64,000 nucleotides of DNA from Thermoplasmata archaeon (GTDB lineage Archaea > Thermoplasmatota > Thermoplasmata > RBG-16-68-12), in NCBI GenBank assembly GCA_036395115.1, contig DASWDU010000022.1:1-64000 (forward strand), given 5' to 3'. The notes beneath the pieces were generated by a model that worked only from the letters and a program-made list of their open reading frames with translations, was not told where the DNA came from and searched no databases. The position numbers were made by a program, and so were the translations under genes. This document shows, in pieces, positions 3,111-26,214 of the stretch; position 1 is the first letter of the stretch; every line of letters starts with the position of its first letter.

Positions 3111-4190
3111 ATGCCGGAGAACAACTGGGATCTCGACCCACCTTTGATCAAGGAGTTTGTGTCGTTAGCCATTGCGGAAGGACTCCGTCCGAGTTCACTG
3201 GACCAGGGACGTGGCGTCCTTATTCGGTACAGTCAGTTCCTTCGCGAACGGTTCAATCTGGACCTGACGACCGCGGGCTGGAAGGAGTTCGCAGCCTACA
3301 AGGGCCACTTGGCCCAGTCGGGAATCGCGAGGACAACTGCCCGCGGCTACCTCAGCTACATCATCACGTTCTACCGCCTGAAGGCTCAGGGTACGCAGGA
3401 TCCACAGCTCCTCGAGCTCTTCACGAAGCTAAACGCCATCGGAATGCCGCGTAAGGCGAAATCTGTGAAATGGACGCCCTTCGCCCCGGAGGTCCTCACT
3501 CGGGTTCTCGAGGTCGCGAAAGCTCAGGCGTTCGTCGGTGAGGGTCTTCGAGCGGTCCCTTCGGAAGACTACGCCCTCCTGATGACGCTACTCTACACGG
3601 GCGGAAGGGCGCAGTTTTACGGGTTGCGGGTGAGCGACCTCGATTTCGATCGAATGGAGATCAAAGCCATCGTCAAAGGCGGGAAGCCGGTCACGATCCC
3701 GTTGCACCCGACACTGGCGGACCTGCTGAGGGAGCATCTCGCCTCGCGATCCTACCAATCGGAATCCCTGTTTCGGTACGGGAAGGATTCCGGCAGTCGA
3801 ACAGGCCAGAAAGCGAACCGTCAGAACGCGTGGCGAGCCTGCAAGCGTATCCAGGAGGCTGCAGGTCTCGCAGAGAGCGTTCATCCCCACCGGTTCCGGA
3901 AGACCACCGCAACCATGGGGAAGAGGCTGGGGTTGGATCCGCAGTTTCTTCAGGCAATCCTCGCCCACGAGAGCGTCACGATGACGCTGGACCGATACGC
4001 GGAGGTCGAGCTCGACGATGTGAAGAGGGAGTTCGCCAAGCTGGACCTGTGCAACGGTCAGGTGGCCTCCACGCAGCCAGCTCAGGCGGAACTCATTGAA
4101 CATCTGAAGAAGCAAGCTCCGCGAGGTAAAGAAGGTGCGTGGAGCATGATCTTGGATGGCCTGAGCACAATCTTGCGGGAGGGAGCATGA
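3111..4190 (+). CDS. tyrosine recombinase/integrase (XerC/D-like)
   Basis: 359 residues. The N-terminal ~115 residues form a SAM-like core-binding domain (YSQFLRERF; RGYLSYIITFYRL). The catalytic domain has the expected order: R166 in TGGRAQF, K189 in IVKGG, H258-x-x-R261 in HPHRFRK, H286 in LAHES and nucleophile Y296 in LDRYAEV. The full set suggests an active enzyme for site-specific recombination, as in archaeal chromosomal integrases of mobile elements. It is probably under control of the divergent RHH gene. The next gene overlaps its stop codon (ATGA). No tRNA or clear att pair was found nearby, so the element it mobilises is not defined. Confidence 0.88.
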   Translation: MPENNWDLDPPLIKEFVSLAIAEGLRPSSLDQGRGVLIRYSQFLRERFNLDLTTAGWKEFAAYKGHLAQSGIARTTARGYLSYIITFYRLKAQGTQDPQLLELFTKLNAIGMPRKAKSVKWTPFAPEVLTRVLEVAKAQAFVGEGLRAVPSEDYALLMTLLYTGGRAQFYGLRVSDLDFDRMEIKAIVKGGKPVTIPLHPTLADLLREHLASRSYQSESLFRYGKDSGSRTGQKANRQNAWRACKRIQEAAGLAESVHPHRFRKTTATMGKRLGLDPQFLQAILAHESVTMTLDRYAEVELDDVKREFAKLDLCNGQVASTQPAQAELIEHLKKQAPRGKEGAWSMILDGLSTILREGA

Positions 4191-4664: not shown

Positions 4665-7328
4665 ATGCCCTCTCTGCCGGACGAGGCAAGGACGCGAAAG
4701 GACTTCATTGACAAGGCCCTTCAAAAGGCTGGATGGGACCCTATAACGGCTTTCATCCCGGGAGGTAGCCTTCGGGACGGTACCGTTGAGGAGTACCCAA
4801 CGGCGTCGGGTCCTGCCGACTACGTCCTTTTCAGCAAGGGTCGACCGCTCGCGGTTGTCGAGGGAAAGAAGCTAGCTGTATCACCTCAGAACGTTCTGGA
4901 ACAGGCAGAGCGGTACGCCCGTACATTCCAAGGTGGTCCTTTCCAATTCGGACCCCATCGCATTCCCTTTGCTTATTCCACTAACGGTATGACCTTCTGG
5001 TTTCGCGATCTCCGCCAGAGTGACAGCCGTTCCCGACAAGTTTCGGGTTTCCACCCCCCCGCAGCGCTTGACGAAATGCTTGGACGTGACACAGAAAGAT
5101 CTGAGAAGTGGCTTGAGCAGTCCACCGTTGACCTACCACGGTTGCGCCCGTACCAAAAGGATGCGATTGTGGCCATCGAGGAGGCCCTGCTCGATGGTCG
5201 AAGGAAGATGCTCGTCGCAATGGCCACAGGAACTGGGAAGACAGTGACGACGATCGCCCTGCTCTATCGACTCCTCAAGTCAGGATACATCCGTCGAGTC
5301 CTCTTTTTGGTCGATCGACGCGCGCTCGCCGCCCAGGCTGCCTCCGAGATGGCGGCCTTCGAACCCGAGCCAGGCCTGAAGTTCGATCGGATCTACGAAG
5401 TCTACAGCCATCGCTTCCATCGGGAGGATTTCGACGAGAACCTGAAGTTCAATCCAAGGGAACTTCCCGCACATTATCTGACCGAGCCCAAGCCTGGTAG
5501 CTCATTCGTTTACGTCTGTACCATCCAGCGGATGCGAATCAACTTATTTGGCCAACCCGAGGACACGTTTGGCCAGAGCGGGGACATTGATGAGGATTCA
5601 GAGGCGGGAAAATTGGACATCCCCATCCATGCGTTTGATTGTATCATAGCCGACGAATGCCATAGGGGATATACCACACTCGAGGAGGGGAAGTGGCGCG
5701 AAGTCTTAGACCACTTCGACGCCGTCAAAATTGGGCTGACGGCGACTCCTGCTGCCCACACTAAGGCGTACTTCCAGGACATCGTGTTCCGTTATGACTA
5801 CAATCAAGCCGTGCGAGATGGATATCTCGTCGACTACGACCCTGTGACCATACATTCGGATGTCCGCATGAACGGAGTATTCTTGAAGCCTGGGGAAGAG
5901 GTGCAGCTCGTTGACACACTCACAGGAAAGATTGCCTACGACGTCCTCGAAGACGAGCGTGAGTTCGACACGTCAGAGATTGAGAGAAAGGTGACTTCGC
6001 CCGACAGCAATCGCAAGATCGTTCAAGCCTACCTTCACCATGCTTTGGAGCACGAACGAGTGTATGGTCGTTTTCCCAAGACGATTGTCTTTGCGGTGAA
6101 TGATCTTCCACATACGTCTCACGCAGATCAGCTGGTCAACATGCTACGGGATGAGTGCCGTCGGGGCGATGATTTCGTGAAGAAAATCACAAGCAATCCG
6201 AACGTAGATCGTCCGCTGCAACGGATTCGAGAATTTCGAAATCGGCCAGCACCCGCAATTGCGGTAACCGTGGACATGCTCACCACGGGCGTGGACATCC
6301 CCAGCGTAGAGGCGCTCCTATTTGTTCGACCGGTCAAGTCGCGGATTCTGTTTGAACAGATGGTGGGTCGGGGCACGAGGAGGTGCGAGGATCTGCAGAA
6401 GAGCCACTTCGTTGTGTTCGATGCAGTTGGGGTCCTCGACTATTTCAGGAACGCCAGCGATCTCATTGTGGAGGATCCTTCGAGGCCGCCACGACCGCTT
6501 CGTGCTGTCATCCAAGAACTATACGACAATAAGGATTCGCTGTACAACTTACAGGTTCTCGTCCGGCGACTCCAAAGGATCGCGAAAGAAGTGTCAGGCG
6601 AGGGCCGTGAGGAGTTCTCCCAATTCATCCCGGAAGGGGACCTCGCTTCATTCGCTCGGCGTTTGCCGGACCTCTTGAGGGGTGACTGGACGGGCACCTT
6701 GGCGCTCCTTAGGAACAAAGCGTTTCAAGAAATCTTGGAGAACTATCCCAGGGCGCCTCGCACATTTCTCGTGGCGCTAGGCGCTGAAGACGTCGTCAGC
6801 TCGATGTATCACTTTCGCACCGCGGACGGCCGTGAACTGAAACCTGAGGACTATCTTCAGGCATTCGAGCGTTTTGTAAGAAAAAACCCAGAACGGATCG
6901 AGGCTCTCGAAATCCTCCTTGACCGGCCTCGGGAATTTGACACCCGTTACCTGGCGGAGTTGAGGAAGAAGCTCGCGGAGCAGCCCGAGCGGTTCACGGA
7001 AGAGAACTTGAGGAGAGTGTACCGTGATAGTCTCGCAGATATCATCTCAATCATTAGACATGCAGCCAAGAACGAACCTCTCGTGACCGCTGAGCAGCGG
7101 GTCGACAGCGCGATGGCCAAAATTCGCCAGGGGAAGACCTTTAAGCCCATACAAGAGAATTGGCTCCAGCTCATCCGAGATCATCTCGTCCAGAACCTTC
7201 TAATTGAGAGAGCCTACCTGGAAACAATCCCATTCTCGCGCCACGGAGGCTGGAACAGGGCCAACCGAGACTTTGGTGGTCGTCTTGAGGAACTCCTGAA
7301 AGAGATCAATCTGGCGGTGGTTGAATGA
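4665..7328 (+). CDS. hsdR: type I restriction enzyme R subunit (HsdR)
   Basis: 887 residues from the ATG at 4665; an open extension to 4404 is not conserved-looking. An N-terminal PD-(D/E)XK nuclease is visible as D52 and E66-G-K68. A Q-motif RPYQ (161-164), Walker A ATGTGKT (187-193), DECH box (330-333), GLTATP (357-362) and a C-terminal helicase half (VDMLTTGVDIPSVE; MVGRGTR) form the translocase. The C-terminal third is EcoEI/EcoR124-like. It pumps DNA using ATP and cuts unmodified DNA, in complex with HsdM and HsdS. The gene overlaps hsdM by ATGA. The order R-M-S with overlaps points to a single operon, and all key motifs appear intact. Confidence 0.93.
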   Translation: MPSLPDEARTRKDFIDKALQKAGWDPITAFIPGGSLRDGTVEEYPTASGPADYVLFSKGRPLAVVEGKKLAVSPQNVLEQAERYARTFQGGPFQFGPHRIPFAYSTNGMTFWFRDLRQSDSRSRQVSGFHPPAALDEMLGRDTERSEKWLEQSTVDLPRLRPYQKDAIVAIEEALLDGRRKMLVAMATGTGKTVTTIALLYRLLKSGYIRRVLFLVDRRALAAQAASEMAAFEPEPGLKFDRIYEVYSHRFHREDFDENLKFNPRELPAHYLTEPKPGSSFVYVCTIQRMRINLFGQPEDTFGQSGDIDEDSEAGKLDIPIHAFDCIIADECHRGYTTLEEGKWREVLDHFDAVKIGLTATPAAHTKAYFQDIVFRYDYNQAVRDGYLVDYDPVTIHSDVRMNGVFLKPGEEVQLVDTLTGKIAYDVLEDEREFDTSEIERKVTSPDSNRKIVQAYLHHALEHERVYGRFPKTIVFAVNDLPHTSHADQLVNMLRDECRRGDDFVKKITSNPNVDRPLQRIREFRNRPAPAIAVTVDMLTTGVDIPSVEALLFVRPVKSRILFEQMVGRGTRRCEDLQKSHFVVFDAVGVLDYFRNASDLIVEDPSRPPRPLRAVIQELYDNKDSLYNLQVLVRRLQRIAKEVSGEGREEFSQFIPEGDLASFARRLPDLLRGDWTGTLALLRNKAFQEILENYPRAPRTFLVALGAEDVVSSMYHFRTADGRELKPEDYLQAFERFVRKNPERIEALEILLDRPREFDTRYLAELRKKLAEQPERFTEENLRRVYRDSLADIISIIRHAAKNEPLVTAEQRVDSAMAKIRQGKTFKPIQENWLQLIRDHLVQNLLIERAYLETIPFSRHGGWNRANRDFGGRLEELLKEINLAVVE

Positions 7329-8746
7329 CCGATGTAGTTGGCAAACTCTGGGGGTTCTGCAACACCCTGCGGCACGATGGCATCGGCTACGGTGACTATA
7401 TCGAACAGCTGACTTACCTGCTCTTCCTGAAACTGGCGGAAGAAAAAGGTGTGGTCATTCCCGACGGCTACGACTGGAACTCGCTGCGCGTCCGATCCGG
7501 TACCGCGTTGCTTGATCATTATGTCGAAATTCTCCGACGTCTCTCAAGAGAGCCTAGCCTGCTGGGAGATATCTTCGCAGGTTCTCTTTCCAAATTCCGA
7601 GACCCCGTCAACTTGAAGAAGCTTGTCTCGATGATTGACGAGGAGGACTGGGCGTCCCTCGACATTGACTTAAAGGCACAGGCCTACGAGGGCCTACTCC
7701 AGAAGTACGCGGCGGAACAGAAAGGCGCGGGTCAATATTTCACGCCTCGCGAAGCAATCCGTTCCGTCGTGCGATGCGTGAAGCCCGACATTCGTGCGCA
7801 CCCAGAATTCACCATTCACGACCCGGCAGTGGGGACCGGCGGCTTTCTCATTGGATCCTACGAATGGCTTCTCTCGGTGACAAAAGAAGGAGCACTACTG
7901 AAGGTAGAGGACCGCGATCGACTTCGGAGGCGCAGCTTATCCGGAGGAGAAATCGTCTTGGATACGAGAAGGCTGGCATTGATGAACCTGTATCTTCACG
8001 AAATCGAGGGAGATGTATATTACGGAGACTCCCTTGCGGAAGGTCCGCATACCAGCCGACGGTATGACTGTGTAATGACGAACCCTCCCTTTGGAACGAA
8101 GGGCGCGGGAGAAATTCCGAATCGCGCGGATTTCACAATACCTACCAGCAACAAGCAGCTCAATTTCGTCCAGCATGTCATTCGGATCCTCAAGCCCGGT
8201 GGGCGTGCGGCGATGGTTGTCCCCGACAACGTGTTGTTCGAAGAGCATGCCGGAAGGCAAGTCCGCAGGATCCTCATGCAGGATTGCGACCTCCACACGA
8301 TCCTGCGTCTCCCGGTTGGAACGTTCACGCCGTACAGCCCGGGGGTAAAGGCAAACATAATCTTCTTCCGCAAGGGGCATCCGACTCAGGAAGTCTGGGT
8401 CTACGATCTCCGGACAAATGTGGAGAAGATAACCAAAGGTCGCCCCTTGACAGACGAGAATTTCAAGGAATTCGAAGCCGCGTACGGTCCCGATCCCAAT
8501 GGCCATCCGAAAGGAGACCGGCGCGAGACCGAACGGTTCCGGCGCTTTACGCGGAAGCAAATCGAGGACCGCGGCGACAATCTCGACATCTTCTGGTTAA
8601 GAGACGAGAGTCTCGAAGATCCCCAGAATCTGTCCGACCCGGAAGACCTTGCCGCCGAAGCTCGGAATCATCTGCAAGCCGCCCAGGATGCCCTCGATGA
8701 CATTATCCTATTCCTCCAGGCAACTAACCAGGAGCGGAGGGCATGA
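7325..8746 (+). CDS. hsdM: type I restriction-modification methyltransferase (HsdM)
   Basis: 473 residues. The N-terminal helical domain is followed by GQYFTPR (136-142), the AdoMet-binding motif DPAVGTGG (166-173) and the catalytic N6-adenine motif NPPF (253-256). Two copies are expected to assemble with HsdS to methylate adenine in both half-sites of a bipartite target and protect it from HsdR. It overlaps both neighbours by four bases, so subunit stoichiometry is probably set by translational coupling. No disrupted motif was seen. Confidence 0.94.
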   Translation: MTDVVGKLWGFCNTLRHDGIGYGDYIEQLTYLLFLKLAEEKGVVIPDGYDWNSLRVRSGTALLDHYVEILRRLSREPSLLGDIFAGSLSKFRDPVNLKKLVSMIDEEDWASLDIDLKAQAYEGLLQKYAAEQKGAGQYFTPREAIRSVVRCVKPDIRAHPEFTIHDPAVGTGGFLIGSYEWLLSVTKEGALLKVEDRDRLRRRSLSGGEIVLDTRRLALMNLYLHEIEGDVYYGDSLAEGPHTSRRYDCVMTNPPFGTKGAGEIPNRADFTIPTSNKQLNFVQHVIRILKPGGRAAMVVPDNVLFEEHAGRQVRRILMQDCDLHTILRLPVGTFTPYSPGVKANIIFFRKGHPTQEVWVYDLRTNVEKITKGRPLTDENFKEFEAAYGPDPNGHPKGDRRETERFRRFTRKQIEDRGDNLDIFWLRDESLEDPQNLSDPEDLAAEARNHLQAAQDALDDIILFLQATNQERRA

Positions 8747-10233
8747 GTGACGGACCGTGGAAGCTCCCCGAGGGATGGGAGTGGACGACCCTTGGGGAAA
8801 TCTGCGAAATCAATCCCCGCAGATTGGATGGTGATCTTCCGGGCGCTACGCCGGTGTCGTTCGTCCCCATGTCGTCCGTCGACGCGAGAAATGGCGAGCT
8901 CGGGGATCTTCAGCTCAGGTCATTGGCAGAAGTGCGAAAGGGTTTCACACCCTTCAAGGAAGGAGACGTACTGTTCGCAAAGATTACTCCTTGCATGGAG
9001 AACGGAAAGTCGGCGATAGCAAGAGGCCTTGTAAACGGAATTGGTTTCGGAACTACTGAGTTTCATGTACTGCGTCCACTCGGTGGAATCCCCTCAGAGT
9101 TCGTCTTTCGCTACGTTCGGCAGAAGTCATTTAGAGGCGAAGCCGCCGGTCATATGACGGGGACCGCCGGGCAATTGCGCGTTCCAAAGGACTACCTTGC
9201 CAGCGCAGCAATCCCACTTCCTCCACTCGCCGAGCAGCGCCAGATCGTCGCCAAGATCGAAGCCCTCTGCGCCGGGAGCCGCGTCGCTCGTCAGGCCCTG
9301 GACCGCGTGCCCCAGCTGACGAAGCGCTTCTGGCAGGCGGTAATAGCAAAGGCGTTCCGGGGCGAATTGACGGCGCGGGAAGAGGGGGACGAACCAGCAC
9401 TCGTGCAGCTGCACAGGATATGGGAGGAGAGACAAGCGAACGAGCAGAGCCAGATGAAGCACAATCCCGAGAAGCAAGAACTAGCGGATACTGGGGGGCT
9501 AAGGGAATTGCCGAGGGACTGGGCCTGGGCGACGCTTGGTGACATTATTCTGAGTACCCAGACTGGCTTCGCTTCGGGCAAGAAAGATGTGGCGGGCGGG
9601 ATCGCGCACCTGAGAATGAATAACATCGGATCCGACTGTAATCTGAACCTCAGTGTCGTACGGACCGTGCCCAAGGAACTGGCTCTTGAAAAATACCTCT
9701 TGAAATCTGGCGACGTCCTCCTCTGCCACACAAACAGTCCAAAGCTGGTGGGCAAAACTGCGTTGTTTGCCTTGAACGATGGTCGGCGCTATGCTTTCAG
9801 TAATCACCTGACGCGAATTCGTATTAACCCAAATGTCACGATACCCGGATGGGTGTGGCACAATCTGGCCACTCTCTGGAGGCAGGGCTACTTCGAAACA
9901 AGGTGCAAGCAATGGGTAAACCAGGCCACAATAGAGCGAGGAATATTGCTGAGTACGCCTATCCCGCTGGCCCCTTTTGCCGAGCAGCAGCGCATCGTCT
10001 CCCGCATCGAATCTCTCTTCTCTCAGAACTCCGCCATCGAGGCTGCTGCCCGGGAGGCTTGGTTGCGGTTTGACAGACTGGACCAAGCGGTGTTGGCAAA
10101 GGCGTTCCGAGGGGACTTAGCGGAGCAGGACCCGCACGACGAGCCGGTTTCGGTCCTCCTGGAGCAAGTCCGATCGCAACGCGGTACCGAAACACGATCG
10201 CCAACTCAGCAGGCGAACCTTCCCGCTGGATGA
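8743..10233 (+). CDS. hsdS: type I restriction-modification specificity subunit (HsdS)
   Basis: 496 residues with two target-recognition domains in tandem. The first runs from 'LPEGWEWTTLGEICEI' to the conserved junction 'PLPPLAEQRQIVAKIEAL'. The second starts at 'ELPRDWAWATLGDII' and ends with 'LAPFAEQQRIVSRIESLF'. Each is followed by a coiled-coil spacer helix ending in 'KAFRGEL'/'KAFRGDL', the internal repeat typical of full-length HsdS. The target sequence cannot be read from the protein. The gene closes the hsd operon; only 38 bp separate it from the TBP-like gene downstream. Confidence 0.93.
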   Translation: MSDGPWKLPEGWEWTTLGEICEINPRRLDGDLPGATPVSFVPMSSVDARNGELGDLQLRSLAEVRKGFTPFKEGDVLFAKITPCMENGKSAIARGLVNGIGFGTTEFHVLRPLGGIPSEFVFRYVRQKSFRGEAAGHMTGTAGQLRVPKDYLASAAIPLPPLAEQRQIVAKIEALCAGSRVARQALDRVPQLTKRFWQAVIAKAFRGELTAREEGDEPALVQLHRIWEERQANEQSQMKHNPEKQELADTGGLRELPRDWAWATLGDIILSTQTGFASGKKDVAGGIAHLRMNNIGSDCNLNLSVVRTVPKELALEKYLLKSGDVLLCHTNSPKLVGKTALFALNDGRRYAFSNHLTRIRINPNVTIPGWVWHNLATLWRQGYFETRCKQWVNQATIERGILLSTPIPLAPFAEQQRIVSRIESLFSQNSAIEAAAREAWLRFDRLDQAVLAKAFRGDLAEQDPHDEPVSVLLEQVRSQRGTETRSPTQQANLPAG

Positions 10234-10271: not shown

Positions 10272-10856
10272 GTGCACGGGAAATCTTCCGGAGCTCGAGA
10301 ATCAGAGCGGCGGATCTTGTACATTGTCCAAAACCTGGTGGTGACTTTCAGATTGGCTAGGATGTTTCCTCTTGAGGAGATCGTGAAGTCGAGAGCGTTG
10401 GGGACAAGCGTCCGGAAAATCGGAAGGCCATGGCTAGGGCTTCGAGTCGGCCCCCAAAACAGGTACGTGGCCATTTATCCCAACGGGAAAATCGTAGTTA
10501 CAGGATGCCGGACTATCGAGGAGACGAGGGAGGTATCAAAAGAGATCGCGGGAATGTTAGCTTCCCACATTGAATCCAAGCAACCCGTGTCTGAACCTGT
10601 CATTCAAAACATTGTTGCGACGAGCGATCTAGGCCGAAAATTAGATCTCGTGATGGTCGCTAGGGCGCTCGCAGGGCAAGATTTTGAATATGAACCGGAA
10701 CAGTTTCCAGGACTCGTGCTGCGCCTGAGAAACCCTCGCTCTGTGGTCATCTTCTTCCGGACCGGCAATCTTGTTCTTACAGGAACCAAGAGTTTCGGCG
10801 AGTTAGAAAAGGCAGTCGACGCAGCCGTCAGATTGGTGATAGACGCCAGCCAATGA
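10272..10856 (+). CDS. divergent TATA-binding protein paralogue
   Basis: 194 residues from GTG 10272; TTG at 10317 is an alternative that starts nearer the fold. The second half is a clear TBP repeat: VIQNIVATSDLGRKLDL, then YEPEQFPGLVLRLR and VVIFFRTGNLVLTG, with aromatic residues F145 and F161/F162. The first half is a degenerate repeat (VQNLVVTF, RPWLGLRV, YVAIYPNGKIVVTG) with W54 and Y69 where the chromosomal TBP (30370-30918) has DNA-intercalating phenylalanines. It follows hsdS by 38 bp on the same strand. TBP recruits TFB and RNA polymerase to TATA boxes; an accessory TBP may redirect transcription or control the restriction cluster. Coding is certain; the role is inference. Confidence 0.85.
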   Translation: MHGKSSGARESERRILYIVQNLVVTFRLARMFPLEEIVKSRALGTSVRKIGRPWLGLRVGPQNRYVAIYPNGKIVVTGCRTIEETREVSKEIAGMLASHIESKQPVSEPVIQNIVATSDLGRKLDLVMVARALAGQDFEYEPEQFPGLVLRLRNPRSVVIFFRTGNLVLTGTKSFGELEKAVDAAVRLVIDASQ

Positions 10857-10888
10857 GTGTGTCCAATCTGGACGCAGGCGGGGCGGGG

Positions 10889-10915
10889 GCTATATCAACA
10901 TACTGTCTTGGACAG
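10889..10915 (+). promoter_or_regulatory. TATA box and inverted repeat upstream of the DpnI-like gene
   Basis: GCTATATC (10889-10896) is followed by perfect inverted repeat CTGTC-TTG-GACAG (10903-10915), placed between TATA and the predicted start near 10918. This would separate the DpnI-like gene from the hsd/TBP transcript and allow repressor control. Prediction from spacing and symmetry. Confidence 0.45.
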
Positions 10916-10969
10916 CACCGCGAGCGGAAGCAGCGGCAAGATCAAGCTGGCAGTGGGCTTCCATGACAT

Positions 10970-11761
10970 GTGGACCTAAACCTCAACCCCTCGCTGGGCG
11001 TGGCGTATACGAGTCGATCTCAGGTCGCCCGGGTTGTTACTGAGGGCTGGGTGGCTGAGCAGCTCTACTGTCCCGCTTGTAACCACGAGGAGCTAACCCC
11101 AACTGCCCCAGGTACAAAGGTAATAGACTTCCAATGCGAAACCTGCGAAGAAACGTTTCAGCTAAAAAGCCAGAGCCGCCCTTTTGGCTCAAGGGTCACA
11201 GACGCTTCGTACGGGCCCATGATGGAACGGATCAAGGAAGGCAGCGTTCCGACTTTTATCTTCCTTCACTATCGATCAGATCGCTGGCTGGTTCGAGACC
11301 TCTTCTTCGTTCCAAGATACTTCCTCTCCTCTTCGGCCATCGAACAGCGGCGGGCCCTGGCGTTGACAGCTCGTCGTGCTGGGTGGGTCGGATGCAATAT
11401 CCTTCTTTCATCGCTGCCCTCCGATGCAAGAATCCCCGCGGTTAGCGACGAAGTCGCCTTGCCATCCCAAGGGGTGCGGGCCTCGTGGAACCGATTTTCA
11501 TTTCTGGATAACTCAAAATCGGAATCTAGAGGGTGGATGGCAGACGTCCTGCGCTGCGTCCGAGACCTCAGCCGGGACTCTTTCAGCCTCCCCGACCTCT
11601 ATGCATTTGAGGTAGCTCTCGCCGGTCTGCATCCCCGGAACCGGAACGTTCGACCCAAGATCAGACAGCAGTTGCAAGTCTTAAGGGACCATGGAGTGCT
11701 TGAGTTTGAGGGAAATGGCCGTTATCGTGTTCTGCTCCAGCCCAGACCGCCCACGGAATAG
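10970..11761 (+). CDS. DpnI-family (Dam-replacing) methyl-directed endonuclease, variant active site
   Basis: 263 residues from GTG, colinear with DpnI (about 254 residues). The N-terminal domain matches 'SQVARVVTEGWVAEQLYCPAC' in spacing, with zinc ligands C34/C37 and C56/C59, and 'LALTARRAGWVGCN' is almost identical to DpnI. The C-terminal winged helix (KIRQQLQVLRDHG, then EFEGNGRYRVL) is the second methyl-GATC reader in DpnI. DpnI cuts GATC only when adenine is methylated. Of the nuclease residues D53, E64 and K66 in DpnI, D53 and K66 are kept but position 64 is glutamine (FQLKS). Some PD-(D/E)XK enzymes function with Q-x-K, so activity is possible but not assured. No partner methylase is adjacent, as expected for this type. 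Confidence 0.9.
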   Translation: MDLNLNPSLGVAYTSRSQVARVVTEGWVAEQLYCPACNHEELTPTAPGTKVIDFQCETCEETFQLKSQSRPFGSRVTDASYGPMMERIKEGSVPTFIFLHYRSDRWLVRDLFFVPRYFLSSSAIEQRRALALTARRAGWVGCNILLSSLPSDARIPAVSDEVALPSQGVRASWNRFSFLDNSKSESRGWMADVLRCVRDLSRDSFSLPDLYAFEVALAGLHPRNRNVRPKIRQQLQVLRDHGVLEFEGNGRYRVLLQPRPPTE

Positions 11762-12810: not shown

Positions 12811-14568
12811 TTGGCCAACATAGGCTTCGATGATCTGAAGAAGGACCTGACGGAGATTGGAACGGCCAATCCGCGCCTGAAAGCTGATGAGAGGTTCGTT
12901 CTCTGGTTCCTAAAGGCGTTCCTTTGCGAAGATGAGGCGGAAGCGGCTCAGTGCCTCACGGGAGGCAGTCACGACAAAGGAATCGACGCGGTAGTCGTTG
13001 ATGAGGACCTGAAGCAGGTTTCCGTCATTCAGGGAAAATTCCATGAAGGGATTGGCGAGGTTGCAGAGAAGCGAAGTGATGTGATATCATTCTCACAACT
13101 TGCCTCCACGTTTTTCGGTCCGAAGAAGGCACTCGACGCCTTCTACGACGAGATCGATCCGTTGGTTCGCGCCAAAGTCGAAAAAGCTGTAGAAAGACTC
13201 AGGAAGCGGAACTACTCGTTGCAACTCTACTACGTTACTACGGGGCGATGCAGTAACGGGCTCACTTCTGAGGCGATGCTAAACGCACGCTACTCCGACG
13301 GTCCGGCTCAGCTCGACCTGGTCGGGGGGCACGATGTTCTGAGGATTTTCACCGACTATCTTGACGGCGTAGCACCCCCTGTCAGGGAACTTGACTTTCC
13401 GCTCGAATCCGAAGGACGGATTCGTAACGAAGGAGTCCTGAAGCGGTACGATCCCACAACCGGAATCACGGCTTGGGTCTTTTCGATGACTGGGAATGAG
13501 ATGGGCCAAGTCTTCGAGAAAGCAGGGATTAGACTCTTCGCTCGCAACGTTCGTGGTTTCCTGGGTCGGACCGATATCAACGATAGCATTCGCTTCACGC
13601 TCGAACATGAAGCGGACAACTTCTGGTACTTCAACAACGGAGTTACGTTGGTTTGCGATCTCGCTACGCGTATCCAGGAGGGAGGACGAGAGTTCTTCCG
13701 CGTAAGGAATCCGCAGATCATCAACGGCCAACAGACCACCCGCCAACTGCACATGTATGCAAAAAAAGGCGCCAGTGTGCTAGTTCGGCTAATCCAGATT
13801 CCGAGGACGGGAGAAAACGGGGAGCACTACTTCGACAAGATGGTCAGCAACATCGTGAAAGCCACCAATTGGCAGAACGAAATCTTGGCTTCCGATCTCA
13901 TGGCGAATGATCGTCGTCAGGTGGTTCTTGAGAAGGAGCTCCGCAAGTTAGGATACCAGTATATCAGGAAGCGCCAAACCAAGTCGGAAGCGAGGCGCGC
14001 GTTCGGCAGGCATTATCACACACAGATTCGGAAAGATGAGTTAGCGCAGGCTGTTGCGGCTTGCGAATTGGACCCTGCGATTGTTCGGCGAGGAAAGGAA
14101 GGCCTGTTCGAGGAAAGGTACTACGGGACAATCTTCAATGCTCAGCGGGCTGGGTACTACCTCGCGCGGTATTGGCTGATGAGAGCGATTCAGAACCGCA
14201 GCAGAGGTTATCCCGAACGGGCGTATGCGAAGTGGCTCGTGCTCAACTTCGCTTGGACACGGCTAAGTGGTGACTTGGGTGGAATCGGCGGGAGTGCCAG
14301 ATTTCGCAAGATGGCAGAAGCGTTGTACGGTTGGCCGAAGTCTCTCGAAGGCGCGATCGACGCTACGTTCCGCGCAGCCTTACTCTTCTATAGATTGAAC
14401 CGTGGTGAGGGGGAGCAGCGTAAGGATGTCTCAACGTTTTTCCAGGGTAGCGGGCTTAACAGAGAGTTCAATTCGTTCTGGCGAGGTTCCAGAAACGTTC
14501 ATCGGGCGCCGGCAGAAAAGCGCTATCTGAACTTCCTGAAAGAGTTGAGAGCTCGGGAGGATTCCTAG
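12811..14568 (+). CDS. AIPR-family abortive phage infection protein
   Basis: 585 residues from TTG 12811, with an AGGAGG ribosome-binding site just upstream. The AIPR core is obvious: 'RLFARNVRGFLG', 'DNFWYFNNGVTLVCD' and 'NPQIINGQQTT'. The N-terminal ~100 residues look like a restriction-endonuclease fold: 'GIDAVVV' with D59, then 'VIQGKF' with Q74-x-K76, a D...QxK arrangement as in Mrr-type enzymes. AIPR proteins are linked to abortive infection and occur beside restriction systems; their biochemistry is poorly known. The protein appears full length. The use of a Shine-Dalgarno site with TTG contrasts with the leaderless genes around it. Confidence 0.85.
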   Translation: MANIGFDDLKKDLTEIGTANPRLKADERFVLWFLKAFLCEDEAEAAQCLTGGSHDKGIDAVVVDEDLKQVSVIQGKFHEGIGEVAEKRSDVISFSQLASTFFGPKKALDAFYDEIDPLVRAKVEKAVERLRKRNYSLQLYYVTTGRCSNGLTSEAMLNARYSDGPAQLDLVGGHDVLRIFTDYLDGVAPPVRELDFPLESEGRIRNEGVLKRYDPTTGITAWVFSMTGNEMGQVFEKAGIRLFARNVRGFLGRTDINDSIRFTLEHEADNFWYFNNGVTLVCDLATRIQEGGREFFRVRNPQIINGQQTTRQLHMYAKKGASVLVRLIQIPRTGENGEHYFDKMVSNIVKATNWQNEILASDLMANDRRQVVLEKELRKLGYQYIRKRQTKSEARRAFGRHYHTQIRKDELAQAVAACELDPAIVRRGKEGLFEERYYGTIFNAQRAGYYLARYWLMRAIQNRSRGYPERAYAKWLVLNFAWTRLSGDLGGIGGSARFRKMAEALYGWPKSLEGAIDATFRAALLFYRLNRGEGEQRKDVSTFFQGSGLNREFNSFWRGSRNVHRAPAEKRYLNFLKELRAREDS

Positions 14569-14729: not shown

Positions 14730-14780
14730 GCCATGCGCCGCTTCTTTCATCCAGCCGCGAGCGATTTGCGGGGTCCGAAG

Positions 14781-15875
14781 ATGGCACTTGAAACGATCGA
14801 CATGACGCGGGCTCGGGATGGACTTCGCAGTGCCCTCGAACAAGAACGGCCGATGCTCGAGGATCTCCGCGACCGCGTTCGCGGATTCGAGATTCACGAA
14901 ATCGGATACCGGCGGTGCTACGCAATCTCCCCGGTCGCCACCGACGGGGGCGAGAACCGCCTCACGTTTGAACCCTTCAACTTGGAAATTCTGCGCGTCG
15001 TGGACAGCGACGGGCGGGAGCGGTTTCAGAAGATCCTCCCGCTATCGGGAGGTCCTGGGATCTTCCGTGCGGCTTTCGATCGAACGTTCCCCGATCACGT
15101 CCCACTTCTCGCAGAGTTTCTGGAACGCCTCGACGTCAGGTACGATGACCTCTCCTACCTTCTTAATCCGGACCGAAGCGCCGGCGATCTGAGGTCCGCC
15201 GTACAGCCGTTCCGAGACATCGTGGAATGGGCTGTGTTGCTCGACATTGCCTGGAATCCGGGGCAAACGAAGGCACTCGTGATCCGGGACGGGCTGCTGC
15301 GTTCCATTGCGTTGCGGAAGGAGATTCTTCCCAAGCTCGCCAGGTCGTTTGAGGAGGCCTACCGAGAGCAGGGCAGCCTGCTCGTCGGGGTAGCCAAGCG
15401 ATCGAAAGTTCTGAACTACCTTTCCTTTGCCCTTGCCCTCGAGGGGACTCTCCGCAAGTCCTATCCTTGCTTCTGTGAGGTGCCGAAACAGATTGAGCGC
15501 GAGGCCCATCGGCAGTGGCGAAGTTGGCTTGAGGAACACACGATCGGCCGACTACACCTCGCGAAACTCGTTGAAGAGCCCGACGGGCTCATTCTCCCCG
15601 TCGATATTCCCGAGTGGCTTATGCCACGCCGGAAGGAGATTCTCGAGTACCTCGCCGAGACCGCGAAATCCTCTTTCCCCACGCCCGGCTATCCGGAACC
15701 TCTCATCCGCGCGCATGAGGGCGCGGTCCTCCACGGGATGGAGATGTCGGTCTTGGAAGACATGTTCATCGAGGAGTTGTTGCGAAATCAGCCTGGAAGC
15801 GACTCCGACAAGACCTTCGAGCACGTGGCGATCGGCCGCGGTCTGCTCAAAGGAGGCTGGAAGGAATATGGATGA
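14781..15875 (+). CDS. nurA: NurA-like nuclease
   Basis: 364 residues from 14781. NurA 5'-3' nucleases share an RNase H-like core. Visible here are an early acidic 'ATDGGENRLTFEPFNLEI', a central 'TKALVIRDGLLR' with the D-G pair, and 'LLVGVAKRSKVLNYL', matching the family's vvgisK element. NurA forms a complex with the hexameric HerA translocase and, in most archaea, with Mre11-Rad50 to resect DNA ends. Here the pair stands without mre11/rad50 inside a restriction/abortive-infection cluster, so a defence role is possible. It overlaps herA by eight bases. Confidence 0.75.
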   Translation: MALETIDMTRARDGLRSALEQERPMLEDLRDRVRGFEIHEIGYRRCYAISPVATDGGENRLTFEPFNLEILRVVDSDGRERFQKILPLSGGPGIFRAAFDRTFPDHVPLLAEFLERLDVRYDDLSYLLNPDRSAGDLRSAVQPFRDIVEWAVLLDIAWNPGQTKALVIRDGLLRSIALRKEILPKLARSFEEAYREQGSLLVGVAKRSKVLNYLSFALALEGTLRKSYPCFCEVPKQIEREAHRQWRSWLEEHTIGRLHLAKLVEEPDGLILPVDIPEWLMPRRKEILEYLAETAKSSFPTPGYPEPLIRAHEGAVLHGMEMSVLEDMFIEELLRNQPGSDSDKTFEHVAIGRGLLKGGWKEYG

Positions 15876-17889
15876 GGTGATGGGGACCGTCATCGGCGTC
15901 TTCAAGGGTTTCATCGAGTCCGGACTCGAGTTCAAAGCGGATCTCGTGGTCCCGTATCAGAGCGAGTTCGCGCCCCTCCTTGGTAGCTTCCTGGTCGTCG
16001 AGGTGTCAAAGCAACGCTATCTCCTGGGGCGAATCACCCGGTTCCACCCGGTCGGCCTCATGGCCGGGGCCGAGGCGGAGGACTACCTCGCCCGGATGTC
16101 AAAGGCCGGACGATCGGTCCCTGAGGATCTGAAGGAAGCAAAGCTCCGGTACAACGTGAACGTCAAGTTGCTCGGCGCGTTGACGCTAGACGGGAAAGGT
16201 GTCCCGAAATATGAGCCATCCATGCGCCAACTGCCTCATTTGGGTGCCCGCGTGGGGGTCCCTGCCGAGGATGCCCTCCGGCTCATCTGCTCTCTCGGCA
16301 TCGAGGCGGGCGAGAAACCGATGGTCCTAGGGCGTCTCGCGTTCGGCAACGTCGTCTTCGACGGGGACGGCCAAGCTAATCTGCCTGTCCCGTTCGATGT
16401 CCGGCGCCTTGTAGGTCGGCGGAGCTACGTGTTTGCGCACGCGGGATACGGCAAGACGAATCTCGTTAAGCTCCTTGTCACGAAGTTGTACGAAACGGAC
16501 CCCGAGGTCGGCTTCTTGATCTTCGACCCAGAGGGCGAATACGCGGTCACGGACAAGAGGGGGCGACCTGGATTAGCGGACGTCCCGGAACTCCAAGACA
16601 AAGTTGTCTTGTACACAGATCGAAAGCTGTCCCCGAAGTATCAGCGGTTCCTCGCGGGCGATGTTCATTTGAACCTCGGCTCTCTGAGACCTGGAAATGT
16701 GGTCAAGAATTGCGTGCCCCCCGAAAAGTGGGAGCAAGTGTGGGCGAACGCGGTCCGAGGTCTGCAGGAGCATGAGTGGGCCGCGCTCGTTCGGTTGCTT
16801 GAGATCGATGGGTACCGCGCCGACTCGGCCGGGATACGAGACATCGTCCAAAACGTCGCCGAAACGACGCCTCCTGCGATCGTCAATAACATCGTCCCCG
16901 TCGTCAAGAGACTTCATGATAAGGCTTCTCGGATGCTCGACGGGATCTTCTGGCATCTCGAGCGCAACCACATCATCGTCGTCGACATTTCCCTGATGGC
17001 ATCGGTCCACGGTCGTTGGATCGCATCCTTGATCCTGAACGAGATCTTCCAGCGGAACCAGGCCAACTTCACAGCGGGCGCCCAGCGGGAGCTCCTGAAC
17101 GTCGTGACGGTCGTCGAAGAGGCGCAGACGGTCCTCTCCACAGACCGCGAGAAGGGTGAGACCATCTTCGTGGAGTGGGCGAAGGAGGGTCGCAAGTACG
17201 GACTCGGCAGCATCTTCGTAACCCAGCAGCCCGGCGCGATTCCCTCGGAGCTTGTGAGCCAGGGAGACAACTTCTTCGTGTTCCACTTACTCAGTACGGA
17301 CGATCTGGCGTCCTTGCAGAGGGCTAACGCACACTTTTCGAGCGATGTGTTGGGTATGATCCTGAACGAGCCAATCCCTGGAAACGCATACGTCTGGAGC
17401 GCGCCGTACCAACCCTTCGTGCTCTCGGTCCGAATGGAGAATTTCGAGGACTATGCCAAGGGCGCAATGCGCACCAAACCCGCGGAGGCGCTAGCGACTC
17501 CAGCTGAGGAATTCGCCAAAAGGATTCCAGATCTCCAAATGGAGCTTGATCGGACCGTTCGTGAGTTGCTCGAGAAAGACCGACAAGTACCCGTGTATGT
17601 CAACCTCGTATCCAATGGCCAGCCTTTGGCGGGACAAGTTGCGGTGAAGCTCTGGAATCTCAAACTCGGCGTGGGGAAGTCCCTGTCGCAAGAGGCCGCC
17701 CGGGTTTTCGCAACTGAAATGCCTGACGGGCACAAAGTCGTGCCCGATGACACGCTCCTTGCGGCACTCGATCGGTTGACTGTACGCCACAGGATCATGC
17801 GTTCGGAGAAGACCCCCTATCTGCTCTTGGGTTCAGACGCCCTCAAATTCCAGAAACCCACGAGATCGGAAGTCGTGGATCTGCAGTAG
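15868..17889 (+). CDS. herA: HerA-like DNA translocase ATPase
   Basis: 673 residues from ATG 15868; the longer open frame from 15427 reads through nurA and is a shadow. An N-terminal HAS-barrel region (VIGVFKGFIESGLEFKADL) precedes the FtsK/HerA ATPase. Walker A is AHAGYGKTN, with Walker B and catalytic glutamate in 'VVTVVEEAQTVLS'. 'EWAKEGRKYGLGSIFVTQQP' carries the sensor and arginine-finger region usual in HerA. A C-terminal ~120-residue extension (VYVNLVSNGQPLAG onward) is not typical of short HerA. It should form hexameric rings that pump DNA to NurA. Overlap with nurA implies coupled translation. Confidence 0.85.
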   Translation: MDEVMGTVIGVFKGFIESGLEFKADLVVPYQSEFAPLLGSFLVVEVSKQRYLLGRITRFHPVGLMAGAEAEDYLARMSKAGRSVPEDLKEAKLRYNVNVKLLGALTLDGKGVPKYEPSMRQLPHLGARVGVPAEDALRLICSLGIEAGEKPMVLGRLAFGNVVFDGDGQANLPVPFDVRRLVGRRSYVFAHAGYGKTNLVKLLVTKLYETDPEVGFLIFDPEGEYAVTDKRGRPGLADVPELQDKVVLYTDRKLSPKYQRFLAGDVHLNLGSLRPGNVVKNCVPPEKWEQVWANAVRGLQEHEWAALVRLLEIDGYRADSAGIRDIVQNVAETTPPAIVNNIVPVVKRLHDKASRMLDGIFWHLERNHIIVVDISLMASVHGRWIASLILNEIFQRNQANFTAGAQRELLNVVTVVEEAQTVLSTDREKGETIFVEWAKEGRKYGLGSIFVTQQPGAIPSELVSQGDNFFVFHLLSTDDLASLQRANAHFSSDVLGMILNEPIPGNAYVWSAPYQPFVLSVRMENFEDYAKGAMRTKPAEALATPAEEFAKRIPDLQMELDRTVRELLEKDRQVPVYVNLVSNGQPLAGQVAVKLWNLKLGVGKSLSQEAARVFATEMPDGHKVVPDDTLLAALDRLTVRHRIMRSEKTPYLLLGSDALKFQKPTRSEVVDLQ

Positions 17890-18017: not shown

Positions 18018-19274
18018 TCAAGGTGACAGAGTGTCGGCGTGCGCGGTTCGGACCTTGGCAACTCGCTCAGTAAGCGCCTCATTCAATTCTCCGATGGGAA
18101 AGGCCTTCAAGATTCGGTCGGCGAATGGTGGTGTATACGGGTACGCGTGGATCCAAATCCGGAATCCAGCAAGATTGTCTAGCGCGAACCTCTCGAACAA
18201 ATCCCTAGTCTTCCATTTCTTGATTTCTTCGATTACGTCTTCTGGCAGGGCATCGAAGTCCGTAAGCATGTCATATGAAAACCGGAGCAGGGACACCAGA
18301 TTGTCCTTGCCCTTGCGACCGGAGACGATTGAATCGTATCGGTAATGGACGTCTGGGATTCCAAGAGCCATTGATGCCAGTCGACGAATTATGCAACCAT
18401 AACACGTCCCGTCGTGAGACCTAAATTGCTGGGAGATGCAGGAGTGGGTAAGTTTGAGCCAACCCCTATCTTTGATCAACGCCATGGCTTCGGCCTTTGT
18501 ATGACCGGCGAGCGGCGTTTCTAGGCGGATTCTATTCTGAGTGAGCTTCTTTGCAATTGATCTGATTACCTCGAGCACCAAGGGGTGGGAAGTCATGGTG
18601 GTTGTGTCGAAAGGACCGAATCGGGGCTGATGCATGGTCGGGCCACATTCGCCCATTACGAAGGAACGTCTTCTCAAGCTCTCCGCGACAGCCAGGGCGG
18701 CCATTCCGTACAGAAAGCCGCGGGTTTGCGAATACCCGGCGCGACGGAGAGGGGGCGCGTATAAGGTGAGCAGCGGAACCGAAATTTGCTCGAGAACTGA
18801 CTTGTAGAGCGATTGGACTATGTGAATTAGCCCACCCAGGTCGCTATGCGCGACGAAGAGGGCGATAGGGCGTCTGCCCTCTGTGATGCGCTTGAGTAGG
18901 GTTGCCAGACTATCGATCCCGCCTGAGAAGAGGCTAACCTCGGTTTTCTGAGTTAGGCTGACCTCATATTTTGACGTACGAACCCGAGTATCTGCGGCGA
19001 CGAATCTGACACTAATCTCGACGGGCCATAGATATTCGAACAGGTGTTCCAGGTCAGTTGTGATGTCATTGTCTCTAAATCGGTCCAAGTTGATCATTGA
19101 GACGGGGATGACAGATTCTATCTTGCGGTAGCCCGCCTTGACTTGATTCTCAACTGCGATGGCGGATTCCCCGATTCGGTAGATATCGCGTCCCGAAACG
19201 AACGCATCGAGCCTGGCATAATCGCTTTCGCGGCTCGAGACCCTAACTGGTGTGACGACCCTCCTCCGGTTCAA
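18018..19274 (-). CDS. QueC-like PP-loop ATPase (QatC/Cap9-type), defence-associated
   Basis: 418 residues. The PP-loop motif SGGIDS (117-122) and a downstream 'HSC...HDGTCYGCIIRR' (C279, C291, C294) match the QueC/7-cyano-7-deazaguanine synthase superfamily. The long N-terminal region and 'GPTMHQPRFG...TSHPLV...GHTKAEAM' resemble QatC and CBASS Cap9 rather than housekeeping QueC (about 220-240 residues). No other preQ0-pathway gene is nearby. It is the last gene of the rel operon and overlaps the gene before it by 32 bases. The TTG start at 19274 is uncertain because a GGAGGAG site lies just inside it. Family-level inference is an ATP-dependent deazaguanine or conjugation reaction. Confidence 0.75.
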   Translation of the reverse strand: MNRRRVVTPVRVSSRESDYARLDAFVSGRDIYRIGESAIAVENQVKAGYRKIESVIPVSMINLDRFRDNDITTDLEHLFEYLWPVEISVRFVAADTRVRTSKYEVSLTQKTEVSLFSGGIDSLATLLKRITEGRRPIALFVAHSDLGGLIHIVQSLYKSVLEQISVPLLTLYAPPLRRAGYSQTRGFLYGMAALAVAESLRRRSFVMGECGPTMHQPRFGPFDTTTMTSHPLVLEVIRSIAKKLTQNRIRLETPLAGHTKAEAMALIKDRGWLKLTHSCISQQFRSHDGTCYGCIIRRLASMALGIPDVHYRYDSIVSGRKGKDNLVSLLRFSYDMLTDFDALPEDVIEEIKKWKTRDLFERFALDNLAGFRIWIHAYPYTPPFADRILKAFPIGELNEALTERVAKVRTAHADTLSP

Positions 19275-19587
19275 TATCGTCCGCTTCCTGTATCTGCCGT
19301 CGCGCAGCGCTGATACCGTTCTTGATTGCAGACTCGATTACGTTTTCCGGGACTTGGCTCCAATCGTCAGTAGAATAGCCCGCGGTGCGGAGCCTATCCG
19401 CCACAAGCGGTGCCGCCGCTTTGGCGACCTGACGGTTCCGCCTTTCCACTTCGCGTTGGACATCTTTGGGGAGGGTAAGGTAGCCCGTAGAGATATCTTC
19501 CGACCTGACGCCAGCGGTAAGCATCTTCTCGATCAAAGAGGCAAGGAATTCCAGAAACGCGGCATCCGCCGGTGGGGGTCGAATCAT
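19243..19587 (-). CDS. small helical protein of the rel/QueC-like operon (a)
   Basis: 114 residues, ATG at 19587 overlapping the upstream stop by four bases (ATGA). Predicted mostly alpha-helical and charged (AAFLEFLASLIEKMLTAG; LPKDVQREVERRNRQVAKAA). I recognise no family. The tight coupling on both sides suggests a dedicated subunit made in stoichiometry with the QueC-like enzyme. It could be an adaptor, an antitoxin for the alarmone-synthetase-like protein, or a structural partner; sequence alone does not decide. Confidence 0.62.
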   Translation of the reverse strand: MIRPPPADAAFLEFLASLIEKMLTAGVRSEDISTGYLTLPKDVQREVERRNRQVAKAAAPLVADRLRTAGYSTDDWSQVPENVIESAIKNGISAARRQIQEADDIEPEEGRHTS

Positions 19588-19955
19588 TTTCCCCTCTTAC
19601 GGCGACGAAGTGCCCGTGCCAGCGCTTCAGTGACAATTTTGTCTTCAACAAGCGAAGTCTGGATCCCTCTCTTGTCGCGCTCGACGGCCCAAGCCTTGTT
19701 CGCAGCTCGTTTTCTTTGTTCGTAGGTCTTCGGTTCTTCCTTCCTCGCTTCTTCAAGAACCTTCGAGTACGCCCTGACGGCTTCGCTGAGGAGGCGGACG
19801 GGTCTCTCGCTGTCGACAACGAGCTGTGCACTATCTGAGGCAATTCGATCGGCACGCCCTTCTTTGACTGCTCGAGTAACCCGCCTCTTGTCCAGCTTTG
19901 TCTTCTTGGACTTTCCAAAAACGTCCTCTAGAGAGTATGACCGTCGACCGCCCAT
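19584..19955 (-). CDS. small basic protein with Met-Gly-Gly N terminus, rel/QueC-like operon (b)
   Basis: 123 residues; its ATG follows the rel stop codon immediately (TAA-ATG). It starts MGGRRSYSLEDVFGKSKKTK and ends in a Lys/Arg-rich tail, with a central helix 'RPVRLLSEAVRAYSKVLEEA'. No family recognised. The exposed Gly expected after Met removal is notable because QueC-like enzymes of defence systems have, as I recall it, been reported to modify N-terminal glycines of partner proteins. This is a hypothesis only. The protein is very basic and might also bind nucleic acid or ribosomes. Confidence 0.62.
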   Translation of the reverse strand: MGGRRSYSLEDVFGKSKKTKLDKRRVTRAVKEGRADRIASDSAQLVVDSERPVRLLSEAVRAYSKVLEEARKEEPKTYEQRKRAANKAWAVERDKRGIQTSLVEDKIVTEALARALRRRKRGK

Positions 19956-21032
19956 TTAGCGGACCTCCCCTGGGCCTGGAGAAAGTCGATCTCGCTTCAG
20001 AGCAGCAACTCGATCACAGAAAACACGGATTGTCGGAATGTCCCACTCCGGGTGGCTCTGCCTCACAAAGTCGTAGTAGGCCTGGGGACTACGATACTTC
20101 AGGATGTCGCGGACCTTGCCAATCCCAGACCGACGCACATAGTTTAGCTCGAGCCTGAGAGCCTCCACCGCCTCCGCGGGAAACTCACCGATGGCGCGAT
20201 TAAGAGCCGATAGTGTCGTGATGCCAACAGCCCGTGCCTCTTCGGTGATGTCGCGAAGGACCTCGCCAGTAATTGAACTCCCGTGCTGATTCCGAAAAGC
20301 TTTTTTCGATAGGAAAACCCTGAGGGCTATTGGTTCAATCTCGATTTCCAAATCGCCGCGATCGATGCGATTTCCGATCTCCGACTCCAGTCGGCGCCCA
20401 TAGTCTCTCAGGTCTTCGAGCTCATTGTCGGCGATTTCTAGGAGCCCGGAAAGAGCGTAGAAGCGGCGCTCGATTGTCCTGGGGGGCTCCGTCGGCGGTT
20501 TATATATTAGCCCGTGGGCTGTTGCCGCCCACGCATGTTGAAGAATCGTCCGAATCTGGATTTCGCATTTGAGCGTTGCGATTCCTGGGGCTTCTGCCGG
20601 AACCAATTGACCGGGTAACGTAACAACGAAGTGCGCAGAGTTATATCCGAAGACCTTTGGGTCGCTGGCCTTGTTGAAATCCACTGAATTTTTTTCGTCA
20701 ATGATGAATTTCCTCCTTACGATGTCGCTCACGGTCTCAATATCGGATCGGAAGTGGACCATTGCCCTGACACCTGCGAGGTCGGTGACTTCCGTCAGCG
20801 GATCTTTGTAGTCCTTTTCTTCCCGGAGGACCTTCTCTTGAAAACTCTCAACAGTCTTTACGCGGTATGTGCACCCGTCGATTGTGAGTCCGATTGCTGC
20901 GATTTCGCTGACTAGACAGTCTCTCACCACAACTGCAAGTCGCTCGTACGAAGGGCGGAGAACCCTGTATTGTTCCGCGATTTCGTCAACCGATAGCTCT
21001 TCTGGCTTAGAACCTGGTGTCCCGTTCGCCAA
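19956..21032 (-). CDS. RelA/SpoT-domain alarmone-synthetase-like protein
   Basis: 358 residues from TTG 21032, preceded by GGGAGGG and a TATA box. The nucleotidyl-pyrophosphotransferase core is clear: R57-x-K59...S63...K67 (YRVKTVESFQEK), D84-L-A-G-V-R89, 'FGYNSAHFVV' with Y130 at the guanine-stacking position, and 'EIQIRTILQHAWAATAHGLIYK'. There is no HD hydrolase domain. About 180 residues follow the core, longer than in ordinary small alarmone synthetases; their function is unknown. Family members make (p)ppGpp or ppApp, or pyrophosphorylate tRNA as toxins. As first gene of the operon it is the likely effector. Archaea mostly lack ppGpp signalling, which makes this gene unusual. Confidence 0.82.
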   Translation of the reverse strand: MANGTPGSKPEELSVDEIAEQYRVLRPSYERLAVVVRDCLVSEIAAIGLTIDGCTYRVKTVESFQEKVLREEKDYKDPLTEVTDLAGVRAMVHFRSDIETVSDIVRRKFIIDEKNSVDFNKASDPKVFGYNSAHFVVTLPGQLVPAEAPGIATLKCEIQIRTILQHAWAATAHGLIYKPPTEPPRTIERRFYALSGLLEIADNELEDLRDYGRRLESEIGNRIDRGDLEIEIEPIALRVFLSKKAFRNQHGSSITGEVLRDITEEARAVGITTLSALNRAIGEFPAEAVEALRLELNYVRRSGIGKVRDILKYRSPQAYYDFVRQSHPEWDIPTIRVFCDRVAALKRDRLSPGPGEVR

Positions 21033-26084: not shown

Positions 26085-26085
26085 T

Positions 26086-26115
26086 CGCGTACTAATTACG
26101 CGACCGGTACTTAAG
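26086..26115 (-). promoter_or_regulatory. TATA box and palindromic operator of HEPN-MNT copy 2
   Basis: Minus-strand TATA CTTAAGTA (26108-26115) is spaced for leaderless transcription at 26084. Between them lies perfect inverted repeat CGCGTA-CTAAT-TACGCG (26086-26102). This is a good autoregulatory operator candidate. Confidence 0.6.
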
Positions 26116-26214
26116 CGTCGTGGCCGCCAGGACGAATGCAAGGGTGGCACATTTCCGGATCCCTTGGCCCTGCAGAACCGTTGCAACTTACACCGGATGT
26201 TACCACGCGACACA

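Follow-up and report, generated by a model that had tools for sequence, protein, structure and literature searches.

A divergent TATA-binding protein encoded in a thermoplasmatal type I restriction operon, and TbpC-type TBPs in haloarchaeal defence loci

Paralogues of the archaeal general transcription factors have so far been explained mainly by stress response. The C proteins of bacterial restriction–modification (R-M) systems are helix-turn-helix (HTH) proteins with C-boxes. Among TATA-binding proteins (TBPs), the haloarchaeal variant TbpC is already known (PMC4230888), as are TBP genes in the TOTE and TALON systems (TPR, OB, TBP, Effector; PMC12458937). TbpC was described as a sequence variant that is possibly nonfunctional, and variation of the N-lobe Phe pair is established within the TBP family; its expression was not seen in Hbt. 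salinarum PHH1, and no link between TbpC and restriction was reported by Becker et al. 2014 (PMC4230888). Deletion of tbpC in NRC-1 gave no phenotype that was visible in the laboratory (PMC2121645). Reports of TALON come from bacteria, chiefly from Chloroflexota (PMC12458937). The Trp at position L5.1 of TBPL1 provides a precedent for a TBP paralogue that acts at other promoters (PMC7221094). TBP is unmentioned in a survey of archaeal R-M systems (PMC10609329) and in one of archaeal immunity (PMC12988326), and no paper tying archaeal TBPs to R-M or BREX was found in the open literature.

The restriction operon and its TBP

The TBP described here, P0001, is encoded in a window of 64,000 nt, the whole stretch of DNA analyzed, from a Thermoplasmata archaeon (contig DASWDU010000022.1). 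The features of its surroundings are the following.

3111 to 4190, plus strand: tyrosine integrase (PF00589, E=1.8e-23), left neighbour of the restriction operon
4666 to 7328, plus strand: hsdR, type I restriction subunit (EcoEI_R_C 1e-37, ResIII 1e-33, HSDR_N 7e-9; PADLOC REase_I 1e-98); the reading frame opens at 4404, and the ATG at 4666 was chosen by eye
7325 to 8746, plus strand: hsdM, type I methyltransferase (N6_Mtase 3e-60; PADLOC MTase_I 5e-170), overlapping the hsdR stop
8743 to 10233, plus strand: hsdS, specificity subunit (Methylase_S 3e-16; PADLOC Specificity_I 7e-125), overlapping the hsdM stop
10272 to 10856, plus strand: P0001, divergent TBP with GTG start, 194 aa (PF00352, E=1.1e-34)
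10857 to 10969, plus strand: gap of 113 nt between the TBP and DpnI-like genes, with a TATA-like CTATATCAA near 10890, read from the sequence
10970 to 11761, plus strand: DpnI-like methyl-directed endonuclease with a C-terminal wHTH (DpnI 3e-54, DpnI_C 5e-26; PADLOC mREase_II 2e-70)
12811 to 14568, plus strand: AIPR/AbiU-like abortive infection protein (PF10592 1e-36; AbiU 5e-39), island member

The adjacent hsdR, hsdM, and hsdS genes constitute a type I R-M system and overlap one another by 4 nt. The P0001 gene is the fourth of the operon; as the first-pass annotation had stated, it follows hsdS by 38 nt (from the stop at 10233 to the GTG), and a GGAG motif lies a few nucleotides upstream of its start. 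The inverted repeats seen around hsdR, the TBP, and DpnI genes in the window are only short and unconvincing. Downstream of the DpnI-like gene, the order is an unknown protein, the AIPR/AbiU protein, and relatives of NurA and HerA.

The setting looks mobile, which agrees with the annotation's picture of a divergent TBP in a mobile restriction island: an integrase is present, GC content is 54 to 60% over the greater part of the leading 27 kb and largely 62 to 69% beyond, and the window HsdM was not found in 99 relatives, 18 of them of the same genus (E<=1e-60). Because the window starts at the contig start, the island's left edge is out of view. The NurA and HerA relatives form a tandem within the island (14733-17889) and perhaps serve defence, not repair, because known HerA models match only distantly. 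Beside the island genes, the minus strand (18018-21032) encodes a QueC/QatC-like and a RelA/SpoT-domain protein (PADLOC PDC-S33). Toxin–antitoxin-like pairs, PIN-like/UPF0175 and HEPN/nucleotidyltransferase-like, occupy both ends of the low-GC stretch (379-2640, 25111-26273), with Pfam backing for the UPF0175 and nucleotidyltransferase domains only.

The product of 10272-10856 is a genuine two-lobed TBP. The whole protein scores 118.5 bits with PF00352 (curated Pfam cut-off 22.9), and both repeats exceed the cut-off; repeat 2 reaches 82.1 bits and repeat 1 39.5 bits, in keeping with the annotated pairing of a well-kept and a degenerate repeat. The AF2 model, built on a 37-row alignment, takes on a two-lobed saddle (mean pLDDT 86.6) with an N-lobe at about residues 17 to 100 and a C-lobe at 107 to 190. 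The closest PDB folds are TBPs (3oc3_C, 1ais_A, TM 0.80-0.82), the Pyrococcus TBP–TFB–DNA complex 1ais giving a TM of 0.80. Whether the first repeat can fold as a TBP half had been raised as a doubt; in the model residues 17 to 97 do so with block pLDDT values of 65 to 94, the weakest part being residues 41 to 50 (mean 65).

The C-lobe is orthodox in the alignment (N113, stirrup EYEPEQFPG at 139-147, F145, F162), with a change of the SGK Lys to Asn (N166). Its stirrup is identical to that of normal TBPs, and the two Glu of this element are the TFB signature (PMC7221094); the acidic stirrup predicted to contact TFB is retained. The N-lobe keeps the minor-groove Asn (N21), and its first stirrup is rearranged. 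Its Phe pair is absent in the alignment and replaced by the R52/W54 region and Y69, so that P0001 carries the pair in the C-lobe only and not in both lobes. The first-pass annotation had placed W54 and Y69 at the intercalating Phe positions. This holds for Y69, which aligns with the second N-lobe Phe (LLF-SGK), but not for W54: in the ungapped alignment the FPG Phe falls on R52 and W54 on a Gly, and W54 is therefore at best a shifted substitute. The N-terminal half has a net charge of +9, and the pI of the protein is 9.9 versus 5.8 for normal TBP.

The genome encodes three TBPs and four TFB loci. The normal TBPs lie at 30370-30918 of the window and on another contig (G000:C50:52334-52855). The former had been named the housekeeping TBP; it is a real normal TBP, but that label is uncertain, as its type seems confined to its own family and the type on the other contig is wider in the order. 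No P0001 orthologue was found in 390 Thermoplasmatota genomes, nor by a peptide-pattern search of genome and viral contigs. The annotation had also considered that close homologues might lie in core loci; none is close, the nearest TBPs being ordinary ones with 41 to 49% identity over parts. A search of the phylum with the N-terminal 120 aa gave best matches of 34 to 37%, which were rejected as defence-linked kin: they are ordinary core-locus TBPs or tandem degenerate TBPs by a normal TBP. The Thermoplasmatota paralogues inspected retain their Phe pairs, except for one group in which both lobes are degenerate. Some families that do not belong to the window's class have a core locus in which the normal TBP gene is directly preceded by a divergent or degenerate one (L050 2655-3666, L053 7859-8965, L054 6718-7842, L206 958-2040, L208), near enolase and phosphoglycerate dehydrogenase-like genes.

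TbpC-type TBPs in DNA-modification loci

P0001 retrieved TBPs of haloviruses, and plasmids were then searched with the HRTV-9 protein, which yielded a clade partly annotated as TbpC. The HRTV-9 TBP gene lies 16 nt downstream of a type IIG R-M gene and that of HJTV-2 adjoins an N4-MTase and Eco29kI; in both proteins the first lobe is degenerate and the second intact. Members of the TbpC clade are encoded in a BREX locus with pglX and pglZ on either side, next to a type I R gene, downstream of an N-6 methylase or of TaqI-like or other MTase and helicase genes, and divergently from a DUF1156 MTase or from BREX-5 pglX. The TbpC-type gene of NRC-1 pNRC100 (L100) overlaps a helicase gene by 4 nt. 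In named genomes, such genes lie within 4 kb of 12 of the 13 loci whose TBP has a Phe-less N-lobe and of 0 of 67 ordinary TBP loci. The marker proteins for this comparison came from the window and from the plasmid and virus loci, and none came from the contigs tested. A single genome can carry two TbpC-type TBPs, each by its own defence system. In some haloarchaeal defence loci, two divergent TBP genes are adjacent or a few kilobases apart, one N-lobe being more degenerate (L106 10091-11528, L267 6325-7600, L270, L116, L249), possibly one for each system.

A controlled survey covered 244 haloarchaeal genomes with a TbpC-clade profile. The top-scoring stretches (58 usable) were fetched together with 40 lower-scoring TBP controls, and TBPs were classified solely on the residues that occupy the four Phe positions. 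For 60 of the 67 rows with a changed N-lobe, an MTase, helicase, HsdS, or BREX marker lies no more than 5 kb from the TBP, and for 46 of 67 it lies within 300 bp, two TBPs being counted twice through overlapping stretches. The same 5-kb distance holds for 1 of 40 ordinary TBPs with the N-lobe pair kept, and that one shares its stretch with a TbpC (Fisher p=8e-21, which is optimistic given relatedness). One stretch fetched as a control, L326, encodes a TBP whose N-lobe is in fact changed, and a marker gene is 63 nt away. Among the seven unlinked rows, two adjoin type II REases (L288, L294), one shares its downstream genes with the BREX-5 locus L285 (L280), and one sits on a 3-kb contig (L273). 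The nearest genes of at least 200 aa flanking the changed TBPs (n=102) match N6_Mtase (25), Eco57I (21), and ResIII (19); control flanks (n=64) match Cdc6, exonuclease VII, and others, with those three absent among the 25 families listed. TbpC-type TBPs thus sit in haloarchaeal DNA-modification defence loci as a rule, and a TBP in a restriction island, of which the first-pass annotation knew no other example, has many counterparts. When a sample of 394 genomes of the wider phylum was searched for the TbpC clade outside Halobacteria, scores at the TbpC level came only from genomes that the haloarchaeal search had already turned up.

In the changed class, 60 of 67 rows have Tyr at the second N-lobe position, and 65 of 67 retain the C-lobe Phe pair. 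Pairs of TbpC genes give dN/dS values of about 0.05 to 0.3 in both lobes, which argues against the suggested loss of function (PMC4230888). A same-strand marker gene precedes the TBP gene in 28 of 67 rows, overlapping or abutting it in 16 of these, and 7 of 67 TBP genes are divergent from a marker gene. Such overlap with an upstream defence gene, or divergence from an MTase, resembles the arrangement of local regulators.

A 21-bp palindrome, TAGTCTAAGTAAAGACTATAT, overlaps a TATA-like sequence upstream of TbpC operons and was considered as a TbpC promoter or TBP site. In the 244 genomes it occurs 20 times (L349-L368, position 1501), always some 31 nt upstream of one and the same kind of small AbrB-like gene, which is often the first of an MTase–helicase defence operon. 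The candidate was rejected, as the element accompanies this gene with or without TbpC; it is most likely the operator of the AbrB-like gene.

Origin and proposed role of P0001

The annotation had proposed a phylogeny with archaeal TBPs. The haloarchaeal TbpC set forms a single clade (100/100 support) next to haloarchaeal TBPs, and P0001 is probably a case independent of it, because the best tree places P0001 outside this clade, among Thermoplasmatota sequences. Its branch is very long (3.5-4.4 changes per column), and forcing it into the TbpC clade costs 11.6 lnL, which the AU test does not reject (p=0.181). After the stirrup, the P0001 C-lobe reads RLRNP like ordinary TBPs, whereas TbpC has RP.

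With its very long branch, its degenerate first lobe, and no orthologue in the phylum, P0001 could be taken for a TBP paralogue or virus-derived TBP that settled in the island and is decaying there with no defence role; an integrase lies nearby, and haloviruses carry such TBPs. However, the frame is open in the fourth position of the operon, 38 nt after hsdS, the C-lobe and TFB motif are intact in a confident model, and this combination is seen again in dozens of unrelated defence loci, where it is under purifying selection. A mere passenger is therefore quite improbable.

P0001 is best explained as a defence-dedicated TBP, a local initiation factor for defence promoters that works together with the TFB and RNA polymerase of the host, because the TFB surface and C-lobe wedge are kept, the N-lobe is re-cut, and the gene is tied to a defence operon; the probability of this reading is put at about 0.5. 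P0001 would be made from the restriction operon mRNA, and its intact second lobe would bind host TFB. It would then position TFB and RNA polymerase at a limited group of promoters that the altered basic N-lobe may tolerate or prefer; the restriction operon and the island around it are the likeliest to supply them. Its role would thus be close to that of a bacterial C protein, but as a replacement general transcription factor and not an HTH activator. We infer the TFB binding, the altered promoter choice, and the sense in which the operon would be regulated, and the first-pass annotation's suggestions that the protein could recruit RNA polymerase to island promoters only, or bind foreign TATA boxes, have the same standing; the constraint evidence for defence TBPs comes from the haloarchaeal relatives of the class. 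Three observations weigh against the reading: NRC-1 tbpC is dispensable under laboratory conditions (PMC2121645), tbpC expression was not seen in Hbt. salinarum PHH1 (PMC4230888), and the one conserved promoter element upstream of TbpC operons goes with the AbrB-like gene in 20 of 20 cases.

The retained TFB surface, with half of the DNA wedge gone, would also suit a decoy or repressor that captures TFB. With its weakened N-lobe it would form poor or misplaced complexes and so damp transcription, whether that of the defence operon, that of viral genes, or, in an abortive response, that of the cell itself, and TBP-lobe proteins do occur in bacterial RnlA antiphage toxins (PMC7221094). Such a role is nevertheless unlikely. 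The N-lobe retains its minor-groove Asn and an aromatic residue at L5.1 and is under selection as strong as that on the C-lobe, which suggests that DNA contact still matters, and the TBP gene often overlaps genes of the modification operon.

That overlap, and the position beside MTase, helicase, or HsdS genes, would also fit a structural subunit that binds or bends DNA within the defence enzyme complex and is no transcription factor; TBP genes are listed as parts of the TOTE and TALON conflict systems (PMC12458937). A subunit of this kind would have no reason to keep an invariant TFB stirrup (EYEPEQFPG, with the C-lobe Phe pair in 65 of 67), and its partners would be very different enzymes (BREX, type I, IIG, DUF1156) for a TBP of one clade. 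The TBP also seems optional, as most of the 20 operons with the AbrB element are not at a mapped TbpC, and the structural role is the most doubtful of the readings.

The local initiation factor can be extended, more tentatively, to the class. Systems of DNA-modification defence in archaea (type I, IIG, BREX, BREX-5, MTase–helicase) may repeatedly have gained a TBP of their own, re-cut in the N-lobe, that reads defence promoters with host TFB and RNA polymerase and would serve immunity as a dedicated general transcription factor. Haloarchaea (TbpC) would account for at least one such gain and Thermoplasmatota for a further one.

Comparison with known systems

Haloarchaeal TbpC is closest to P0001. 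Both have two lobes with the N-lobe Phe pair lost and the C-lobe pair and TFB stirrup kept, both carry Tyr at the second N-lobe position, and both are encoded with a DNA-modification defence system (by the criterion defined in this analysis). They differ in that P0001 comes from Thermoplasmatota, is placed apart from the TbpC clade by the best tree, lacks RP after the stirrup, has a rearranged first stirrup, and is basic (pI 9.9), whereas TbpC is acidic like other halophile TBPs. Through the linkage to defence, TbpC-type TBPs acquire a definite setting, antiviral DNA modification, and the role of TbpC becomes testable in laboratory strains of Halobacterium and Halorubrum.

TOTE and TALON likewise have a TBP gene within a predicted antiviral system. 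They share a TPR–cold-shock fusion, whereas neither TPR nor CSD Pfam domains matched among the scanned window neighbours (379-24406), and type I R-M is not stated for them (PMC12458937).

TBPL1/TRF2 of animals also has a changed N-lobe L5.1 wedge, Trp in TBPL1 and Tyr in P0001, and is thought to serve other promoters (PMC7221094); it differs in being eukaryotic, not linked to defence, and of other evolutionary origin. Bacterial C proteins share with P0001 the small regulator gene in an R-M operon, if the proposed role is right, but P0001 has a TBP fold and does not qualify as an HTH protein. If the proposal holds, an archaeal immune system that transfers from one genome to another can carry along a promoter-recognition factor of its own, and this could explain both the expression of an island in new hosts and the protection of the host before modification is complete.

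The TBPs of HRTV-9 and HJTV-2 resemble P0001 in their degenerate first lobe, intact second lobe, and R-M gene neighbours; they differ in lying on virus genomes and are about 33% identical to it. Viruses with such a TBP beside R-M genes suggest a trick common to both sides.
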